Source of the DNA: Planctomycetales bacterium
Lineage (GTDB): Bacteria > Planctomycetota > Planctomycetia > Pirellulales > Lacipirellulaceae
Length of the DNA: 64,000 nt
Reading direction: 5' to 3'
NCBI GenBank assembly: GCA_020427155.1
Contig: JAGQOW010000001.1
Coordinates: 1 to 64,000, forward strand
The notes under the pieces were generated by a model. That model was not told the origin of the DNA, made no database searches, and saw nothing but the letters and a program-made list of their open reading frames with translations. This document shows, piece by piece, positions 57,394 through 60,264 of the stretch (position 1 is its first letter; the number at the start of each line of letters is the position of its first letter). Made by a program: the position numbers and the translations under genes.

Positions 57394-57888
57394 TCAGTTG
57401 AGCGTGAATGTGTACTCAGTGAGCAGAACTTCAGAGACTAAGGGGACCTTCAAAACCCGATTGACTCGCAGCAAGATATTGCGACGAAACCGGGTGAGTC
57501 CAGGTTCCAGGTAGTCTGTCGTTTCCGACAGTCGGGCGGCAACGATCACCTGGTCGCGCAGGCGGTGTTTCCAATGTTCGAGCTGTTCCAGTGTGAGTTT
57601 GTCGACCGATCGATCCATTGCCAGGAAAATAGTAAAAGAGACCTTTGCCGTCTCGTTGCGAGTCGGACGGTGGTCTTTCACCTGAAATGTTCCTAGCTCG
57701 ATGGTGGGATGTGCTGCTTCTGCTTCCGCGGCTTGCTCTGCGGCCTCGTCGCCTTCAGCCGCTTGTTGGGCCATTGCCGGAGAACACAGCGCCGCGCCGA
57801 CAAGTGCGATCGCCAAGACCAGCAGACGCGGAATGGTCAGCCGCGCTGGCCACCTAGGCAGACTCACTTGCGAAGCGTATCGCACCAT
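57394..57888 (-). CDS. FliL-like exported protein
   Basis: 164 residues from the ATG at 57888, which overlaps the upstream stop (TGATG); an upstream ATG at 57903 adds five residues. A signal peptide (about 1-40) is followed by an Ala/Glu-rich linker and a domain (about 65-164) that resembles FliL: IELGTFQV, then RLRDQVIVAAR and a closing VPLVSEVLLTEYTFTLN. FliL binds the flagellar stator in other bacteria, but no flagellar genes lie near. The resemblance is by eye. Confidence 0.7.
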   Translation of the reverse strand: MVRYASQVSLPRWPARLTIPRLLVLAIALVGAALCSPAMAQQAAEGDEAAEQAAEAEAAHPTIELGTFQVKDHRPTRNETAKVSFTIFLAMDRSVDKLTLEQLEHWKHRLRDQVIVAARLSETTDYLEPGLTRFRRNILLRVNRVLKVPLVSEVLLTEYTFTLN

Positions 57889-58364
57889 CAAATGGGCTCC
57901 CATTGGAAGTCGTCAAAGAATATTTGGCGAACGCGGTTTTCACCCAACAGCGGTCGGATTGTATCGATCACCTTCGATCGCAAAGCTGCCCAACGGTTGT
58001 CTGAGAGCTCGTCGATCGAAGCTTTGCGAAAGACCGTGATAATTGCATCGTCCAGCATTCCTCGGTGTCTTTCGCAGGCAGCAAGAATTGCCGATTCATC
58101 GTCGTGAGCAGCCCCGGCGTAAAGCCTGAAACGGACCTGTACCCAAACGGGCTCTGTCTCGCGACCTGAGGAGTTTTGGTGGCGGGCAGCGCAAGAGAAG
58201 CGGTAGCTGCCAATCTCGACCTCGGTGACTGATTCCTTGGGCGCATCCAACTCCAGTTCTTCCAAGTAGTCGTCGAGTTGGACTTGCTCTTCGCCGCCAC
58301 ATCCAGAGAGCGCAAGGACAGCCAAGAGAACGATCGTGCAGCAGGTTTTATAGGGGTCGATCAT
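57888..58364 (-). CDS. FliL-like lipoprotein
   Basis: 158 residues. The lipobox LSGC (Cys22) gives a lipoprotein. Residues about 45-158 have the same layout as the two neighbours: an early strand EIGSYRF, a helix RHRGMLDDAIITVFRKAS, then LRSKVIDTIRPLLGENRVRQIFFDDF. This matches FliL-type domains in layout. It is coupled to the next gene by a TGATG overlap. Confidence 0.7.
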   Translation of the reverse strand: MIDPYKTCCTIVLLAVLALSGCGGEEQVQLDDYLEELELDAPKESVTEVEIGSYRFSCAARHQNSSGRETEPVWVQVRFRLYAGAAHDDESAILAACERHRGMLDDAIITVFRKASIDELSDNRWAALRSKVIDTIRPLLGENRVRQIFFDDFQWEPI

Positions 58365-58590
58365 GGTCTCGGCTCAGCTTGCCGCATTGGCCGCAGTCGA
58401 TCAATTCTTGCGGTTTCTGTCAGCTCGTTGTTTCTCCAGAAAAAGCATAGGCTAAGCATTCCGCGGCGTAGCGACCTATATTCCTAGAGAGCTTGTTTGC
58501 CGACAGGACTAGTACGCCTGAATGTACCGTTTATGACGGCTTAAACGAATCGCCTGGCTCGGATCACACCGCCTCGGTCCCAGAAGTAAC

Positions 58591-59055
58591 ATGAACCTAG
58601 CCGCTAGTAGAAACCGTGCCGGCCTATGTGCGTGGCAGCCAGTATGTCTGGTGCTCGCCATATTGCTTTGCGAAGGCTGCTTCAATGCCGAAGCGCTGAT
58701 CGAATCACGGCGTGCATTCGCAATTCGCGCCCGGCTGGAAGAAGTCGATTTGGGCAAGTTCGTGATTACTCTGCCTCAACCGGCCGACACCGTAGAAGCT
58801 GCAGAAATCTATTTCCATGTTTTTGGACAGGTTGCCAACCGCGATGTACACAAGGTGGAGGAATTGCTGATATCCCTGGGGCCCGAGTTGCGCCACCGCC
58901 TGCTGCTCGCCACGCGGCAGCTAACCGTGGAAGATATCCAGGACCCGCCGCTCACGGCGTTGCGAACTCGCATTGCAGAGGTGGTTAATGAAACTTTGCC
59001 GGACGAGCCGCTCCAGTCGGTCGGGTTCTATCAATTTCGGTACTCGAACCTGTAG
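58591..59055 (+). CDS. FliL-like lipoprotein, divergent copy
   Basis: 154 residues. The lipobox LCEGC (Cys30) is followed by a domain (about 50-154) with EVDLGKFVITLP, a helix ELRHRLLLATRQLTVEDI and the closing LRTRIAEVVNETLPDEPLQSVGFYQFRY, again the FliL-type order of strand, helix, helix and final strand. It is divergent from the other two copies, 226 bp away, and lies 66 bp before the next gene. Confidence 0.7.
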   Translation: MNLAASRNRAGLCAWQPVCLVLAILLCEGCFNAEALIESRRAFAIRARLEEVDLGKFVITLPQPADTVEAAEIYFHVFGQVANRDVHKVEELLISLGPELRHRLLLATRQLTVEDIQDPPLTALRTRIAEVVNETLPDEPLQSVGFYQFRYSNL

Positions 59056-59121: not shown

Positions 59122-60264
59122 ATGTTCGACGAAATTGCTTCTTTGTCCCACGAACCCGACCGCATGTTTAGCCAGGCGGCTAAGCGGCTTGCCGAGGAGG
59201 GACGATACCACCAGTTGTTCGAGTTGCGGTTGGTGCAACGACGGTTCGAGTTGGGAATATCGTTGGGCCAGGACTTGCCGTTGGACGAGTTGGAAGATTC
59301 GTTGCGTGTGCGGCTTGAGGATGCGTACCTCGAGGCGTGCCGTGAAGTCGGCCAGTTGATGCTCGAGGCAGGCAAAATACGAGACGCCTGGACTTATTTG
59401 CGCCCAGCAGGCGACAAGGCGACGATGCGTCGCCGGCTCGAGTGCGTCGTGCCAACTGAGGATTCGGCAGACGAACTGATCGCCCTGGCTTTGCACGAGG
59501 GCATCGATCCCGAGCGGGGATTCGCCTGGCTTCTGGCTCAGCGCGGCACATGCAATGCAATTACCGAACTGGAAGGCATTTGCGGCAGCCTGCCGATTAC
59601 TGATCAAATCGCGTGTGCCACCGTCTTGGTGAGACACATGCACGACGAGCTGTTGGGCAACCTGAAAGGGCATCTTCAGCGGTTGAAACAGCCGCCGCCA
59701 GAGACCCATTCGATTGTCGAATTGCTTGCCGCTCATCCCGAACTGCTGGACGAAGGCGCCTACCATGTCGACACCTCGCATCTCGCCACCTCGGTGCGCT
59801 TCGCCCGCCTGCTGACCGAGCCAAAGTTTCTTCGGCTGGCCATCGAATTGGCAGAGTATGGCCGCCGATTGGCCCGCGATCTGCAGTATCCCGACCACCC
59901 CCCCTTCGAGGACACGTATCCTACGCACTTGTTACTCTTTAGGGCGACGCTTGGCGAAGAGGTTGAATCAGCGCTGGAGTTTTTTTCTGAACAAGCCCAA
60001 TCGGCAGAGGTTGAGCTAGAGGGAACCGGAGCGCTGGAAACCTATCTCATCCTGCTGGAGCGAACCGGTCGCTCGGGGGAGGCGCTCGATGAGTATGCGA
60101 AACTAGTGCCTGCCGATTGTGCGCTTTCGCACCATGCCCCCACACTTGTCCACCTGGCCCAGCTCAGCAATCGGTGGGATCGATACCTGGAGATTTGCCA
60201 GCAGCGCAATGATGTGGTTGGCTTTGCTGCGGGCCAGATCTCAAAAAATCGAAAGAGCCCCTAG
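59122..60264 (+). CDS. Conserved hypothetical protein, mostly helical
   Basis: 380 residues, no signal peptide, so cytoplasmic. The protein is rich in Leu, Glu and Arg and looks like an all-helical repeat fold; ALETYLILLERTGRSGEALDEYAKL near residues 310-335 and LSNRWDRYLEICQQRNDVVGFAAGQI at the end resemble TPR units. I prefer this strand over the minus frame 58921-59928 because of its start context and composition. It is convergent with the anti-sigma gene, 26 bp apart. Confidence 0.75.
   Translation: MFDEIASLSHEPDRMFSQAAKRLAEEGRYHQLFELRLVQRRFELGISLGQDLPLDELEDSLRVRLEDAYLEACREVGQLMLEAGKIRDAWTYLRPAGDKATMRRRLECVVPTEDSADELIALALHEGIDPERGFAWLLAQRGTCNAITELEGICGSLPITDQIACATVLVRHMHDELLGNLKGHLQRLKQPPPETHSIVELLAAHPELLDEGAYHVDTSHLATSVRFARLLTEPKFLRLAIELAEYGRRLARDLQYPDHPPFEDTYPTHLLLFRATLGEEVESALEFFSEQAQSAEVELEGTGALETYLILLERTGRSGEALDEYAKLVPADCALSHHAPTLVHLAQLSNRWDRYLEICQQRNDVVGFAAGQISKNRKSP

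Follow-up and report, generated by a model that had tools for sequence, protein, structure and literature searches.

A cluster of three small genes from a planctomycete, named A, B, and C in the following, probably encodes a so far undescribed accessory component of the flagellar motor. The three predicted proteins are one domain family, of the FliL type, as judged from sequence profiles for all three and from predicted structures for A and C, and it is plausible that they form an undescribed envelope complex. The cluster lies in a window of 64,000 nt, i.e., the whole stretch of DNA that was analyzed, and comprises the following features:

57394..57903, minus strand: gene A, open reading frame for an exported protein with a Sec signal peptide, 169 aa, or 164 aa from the ATG at 57888
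about 57397-57714, minus strand: FliL-type domain of gene A (profile match to flagellar FliL, clade A, model)
57888..58364, minus strand: gene B, predicted lipoprotein of 158 aa (Pfam FliL, profile match, clade B)
about 57891-58232, minus strand: FliL-type domain of gene B (Pfam FliL)
58591..59055, plus strand: gene C, predicted lipoprotein of 154 aa (Pfam FliL, profile match, clade C, model)
about 58732-59052, plus strand: FliL-type domain of gene C (Pfam FliL)

All three open reading frames are present as originally predicted, A and B on the minus strand and C on the plus strand. The overlap between B and A is also as had been described: the stop codon TGA of B overlaps an in-frame ATG of A in the sequence TGATG (junction TTTGATGG). 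The longer reading frame of A starts 15 nt upstream of this ATG, which results in a B/A overlap of 16 nt, and the same is true for close orthologs. C is divergent from B, with a gap of 226 bp (58365-58590). Inspection of the N-termini agreed with the proposed two lipoproteins and one plain signal peptide. B contains the lipobox LSGC, C contains the weaker lipobox CEGC, for which the orthologs are nearer to the consensus (LVGC, LTGC), and A has a Sec-type signal peptide with a cleavage site between SPAMA and QQ. In a second family with the cluster, f15, A looks like a lipoprotein as well. Judged by these motifs, B and C, and also A in f15, would be lipid-anchored, and A of the window genome would be secreted. 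The gene at 59122-60264 (plus strand) encodes a conserved protein of 380 aa, for which Pfam yielded no confident match, and it lies beside the cluster in several genomes of the window's family.

The original prediction was based on a pattern of strands and helices that is shared by the three proteins and resembles FliL. This resemblance turned out to be beyond chance with Pfam (B and C), in profile-profile comparisons (A, B, and C), and with structural models (A and C). B and C pass the curated cut-off of the Pfam family FliL (PF03748; 24.6 bits) with 29 bits (1.6e-6) and 25.3 bits (2.3e-5), respectively. The Pfam search with A itself yielded no match; 10 of 19 A orthologs matched FliL at E values of up to 1, the best value being 7.7e-8. 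When the ortholog profiles were compared with the flagellar FliL of relatives, the whole domain was aligned in all three cases, with probabilities of 99.5% for A, 99.2% for B, and 99.5% for C, and the comparison of A with B yielded 98.7%. The structures of the single proteins A and C were predicted from shallow alignments of only six sequences (the window and L053), with pLDDT values of 79 and 80, respectively. The best matches were solved FliL structures, 6ahq for A (Z 13.8) and 7sgn for C (Z 13.4), with rmsd values of 2.0 and 1.9, respectively, over 99-100 residues. Based on the profile match and the predicted fold, A is counted as a FliL-type protein though it fails the Pfam search. Profile searches of solved structures recovered FliL weakly, and a phmmer search with B against solved structures yielded no match. 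The next fold matches of the A and C models after FliL were SPFH/stomatin domains, with Z scores of up to 9.9; in Pfam, no SPFH/Band 7 match was found for A, B, or C at E values of up to 1. The SPFH/stomatin-prohibitin proteins have a related fold and include ring-forming families, but A, B, and C are clearly closer to FliL.

The window indeed contains no flagellar genes, as had been claimed, but they are present elsewhere in the genome, a MAG of 5.5 Mb with 665 contigs and a completeness of 87%. Flagellar clusters are present on two contigs. Contig C232 contains flgB, flgC, fliE, fliF, fliG, fliH, fliI, fliJ, fliK, flgD, and flgE, together with flhA and flhF; FlgE and FlhA were named by Pfam and several others by gene order and sequence reading. 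Contig C6 contains motA, motB, fliL, fliN, fliO, fliP, fliR, and flhB, with MotB, FliN, and FliO assigned by Pfam. A FliL system without flagella was rejected, as the flg/fli/flhA and mot genes are present in the same genome. FliM was not found in the MAG, which is read as an assembly gap because of the incompleteness and because 55 of 60 relatives have it. A gene for a 231-aa protein without a Pfam match is located between fliJ and fliK (L033:5460-6155, minus strand) and is conserved in the flagellar clusters of the order that were read.

The fliL gene on contig C6 is part of a canonical motA-motB-fliL operon, and its product is a normal FliL with a transmembrane anchor. Therefore, A, B, and C are extra paralogs. 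Like flagellar FliL (PF03748; 6ahq/6ahp, 7sgn), they are exported and occur in flagellated genomes, and they have the full-length FliL domain, as judged by profile and, for A and C, by predicted fold. However, canonical FliL has a short cytoplasmic N-terminus and one transmembrane helix, and A, B, and C have neither. In the flagellar FliL of the same genome, the hydrophobic stretch is a transmembrane helix, whereas it ends in a lipobox cysteine in B and C and in a signal-peptidase site in A. In addition, canonical fliL belongs to a flagellar operon, whereas the locus of A, B, and C is not flagellar and each of the three forms a clade of its own.

The distribution was analyzed with a mixed A/B/C/FliL profile search, which yielded four or more matches in 33 of the 37 genomes of the window's family (f1). 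Three of the other four genomes (G005, G023, and G025) have partial counts and fragmented or incomplete assemblies, and the fourth is G013, which is described below. In all of the more than 20 f1 clusters that were read or placed by coordinates, C is divergent from B-A. In f15 the cluster was found in 14 of 241 genomes, from the genera g29, g43, and g392, and a separate flagellar FliL is present in all 14 carriers. In the sample of 392 genomes from the phylum, no lineage besides f1 and f15 had more than two matches, and the divergent gene order recurred in f1 and the three f15 genera and nowhere else. Two genomes with four FliL-type matches each (G147 and G067) were rejected as carriers, as their copies are scattered or split and do not form a cluster.

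In a phylogenetic tree, A (99/87), B (99/97), and C (100/95) formed separate clades, each of which spans f1 and f15. Thus, either the duplications preceded the split of the two families and were followed by losses elsewhere, or the cluster has been transferred. The branching order among A, B, C, and flagellar FliL was not resolved, because the domain comprises only about 107 columns. The three proteins have diverged to 20-40% identity between genera, and the reading frames are open in every carrier that was read. FlhA was detected in 190 of the 197 genomes of the order, and therefore, the co-occurrence of the cluster with flagella says little. The cluster is absent from most of the order's flagellated genomes and is thus dispensable for flagella in general. 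Among the carriers examined, none was shown to lack a flagellar motor.

The clear exception in f1 is G013, a 97% complete MAG from the same genus. Its only FliL-type match is a remnant that contains a stop codon. A joint query recovered MotA, MotB, and FlgE from the congeners G001 and G008, whereas no match to any of them was obtained in G013. At its flagellar locus (L098:11876-13878), a truncated gene beside fliJ runs directly into a frameshifted fliL, and fliK, flgD, flgE, motA, and motB are missing; in relatives, the flagellar fliL is located just past flgE. The genes fliF-fliJ, fliN, fliP, flhA, and fliM have been kept, and the loss of the flagellar motor is apparently in progress. The cluster site of G013 is otherwise syntenic, but nothing is left of A, B, or C. 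The sigma factor gene, an anti-sigma-like gene, and the 380-aa gene are retained, and the next genes, about 650 bp away, encode a transporter, which differs from the usual one. Hence, the one clear absence of the cluster in f1 coincides with the loss of motA, motB, flgE, and an intact fliL, a single event that was observed in one MAG.

The region between C and B contains two opposed TAT boxes, which have a near-constant spacing across orthologs:

58443..58452, minus strand: promoter-like TAT box facing gene B, GCCTATGCTT, putative function; position kept across orthologs, opposed to the C box
58471..58484, plus strand: promoter-like TAT box facing gene C, GCGACCTATATTCC, putative function; kept across orthologs, with a related box upstream of motA

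When a matrix was derived from the C sites only, it gave hits upstream of motA and fliL in the window genome. All six relatives tested have a looser pattern, [CG]TATNNTT, in front of motA, and it was also found at motA in three of three further, previously unexamined genomes versus 1 of 69 other upstream regions. Over 323 upstream regions, the loose pattern was in total not above chance (22 found versus about 25 expected). For a strict pattern, 12 of 15 matches were at the cluster or at motA, a value that is descriptive only, as the pattern had been written after motA had been seen. The genera differed: in g1 and g6, all nine genomes have a TAT box at both the cluster and motA, five of five genomes of g7, g5, and g2 have none at motA, and in f15 the box is not present at both sites. 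The box was not seen at the flhA, fliA, fliR, and fliO operons, and thus there is no support for a general flagellar promoter. No consistent match to the sigma-54 or sigma-28 consensus patterns was found between C and B. As the box may be just of the -10 type and the genomes with the box are related, the motif comparisons give weak to moderate support to a common regulation of the cluster and motA.

We hypothesize that A, B, and C are three ancient FliL paralogs without the N-terminal cytoplasmic tail and the transmembrane helix, and that this part was exchanged for a lipid anchor (B and C, and A in f15) or for a free N-terminus (the secreted A of the window genome). As they are retained or lost together, the three proteins probably assemble with each other, and they would form a periplasmic ring or arc of the FliL type. 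Such a ring or arc would be located at the stators and would support or tune MotA/MotB of the planctomycete motor. Since the three genes are always found together, a mixed ring or arc at the stators explains the data most economically, and we moderately favor a lipid-anchored hetero-oligomer of FliL-type domains that works with the flagellar stators. This is in line with canonical FliL domains, which form rings or arcs around MotB (PMC10127578, PMC12222027). A doubtful extension is that the hetero-oligomeric, lipid-anchored ring faces the stators from the opposite membrane. These motors would then have two FliL layers, one transmembrane-anchored and one of lipoproteins, and the latter would correspond in function to the unrelated periplasmic disks that are found in other high-torque motors. 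In the proximal disk of Campylobacter, PflA, PflB, and FliL arcs form a periplasmic scaffold, and the FliL domains hold the stators (PMC12222027). That disk combines one FliL with unrelated Pfl proteins, in contrast to the three FliL-type paralogs described here. No structure of a planctomycete flagellar motor was found in the open-licence literature.

Extra FliL copies as such are already known. In Vibrio fischeri, fliL2 is unlinked to the flagellar cluster, belongs to the flagellar regulon, and affects motility (PMC3948606), and fliL paralogs also occur in Bdellovibrio (PMC11323537). Like A, B, and C, these are additional copies away from the flagellar cluster. The novelty lies in the three-gene set, with three copies in one divergent cluster that are predicted to be lipid-anchored or secreted, and no account of a planctomycete FliL cluster was found in the open-licence literature. 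The role of FliL is still disputed. Its influence on the output of the motor was assigned to the N-terminal and transmembrane part (PMC10127578). A lineage in which one membrane FliL is accompanied by three exported FliL domains, inherited together and absent where the motor has been lost, would help to separate a periplasmic-ring function from a membrane-anchor function. The cluster is also a candidate component of planctomycete flagellar motors.

The main rival is an envelope complex in which the FliL/SPFH fold of A, B, and C serves a non-flagellar client, e.g., as a scaffold for another ion-driven or transport complex such as the neighboring oligopeptide transporter. We regard this as unlikely. 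The absence of flagellar genes from the locus speaks for this rival and against a role in the motor. In many f1 genomes, the cluster is flanked by an oligopeptide transporter operon on one side and an ECF sigma/anti-sigma pair on the other, SPFH proteins, which are relatives by fold, serve many membrane complexes, and the order contains other FliL-type paralogs without flagellar neighbors. However, the f1 neighbors do not adjoin the cluster in f15, in which the conserved neighbor is ScpB, and no conserved non-flagellar partner was found across the neighborhoods of both families. Furthermore, the cluster of G013 is gone together with the motor genes, whereas the adjoining sigma, anti-sigma-like, and 380-aa genes were kept, and the TAT box is common to motA, but not to the transporter or sigma genes.

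The same neighborhood bears on a swarmer-stage surface-sensing module, in which the FliL-type domains would read motor load or envelope strain and signal to the sessile programme, perhaps via the ECF sigma factor. The literature contains links between FliL and surface sensing (cited in PMC10947273 and PMC10127578), and ECF sigma and anti-sigma-like genes adjoin the cluster in f1. Yet the pair is not beside the cluster in f15 and is retained without the cluster in G013, and Pfam revealed no signaling domain in A, B, or C, so that this reading appears improbable. Least probable is that the three genes are redundant or decaying copies of fliL that have no role of their own. The fast divergence between genera and the frequency of FliL-like paralogs in the order would fit this reading, but the conserved open frames already disfavor it, and three intact clades with the same gene order and divergent promoters have been kept across two families.

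Further FliL-type proteins were observed outside the two families. A single paralog with a transmembrane-like N-terminus is present in other families of the order (L101:6542-7138; L102:6578-7219; L103:6550-7173; L107:7014-7673; L109:7454-8059; L111:6884-7615; L115:7222-7971) and is adjoined by a DAHP synthase-family gene, a diacylglycerol-kinase-like gene, and a TPR gene. In the family f11 (genome G062), a tandem pair of FliL-type exported proteins is encoded at L104:1963-3041 on the minus strand, with genes that overlap like B and A. This pair is possibly a reduced form of the cluster.
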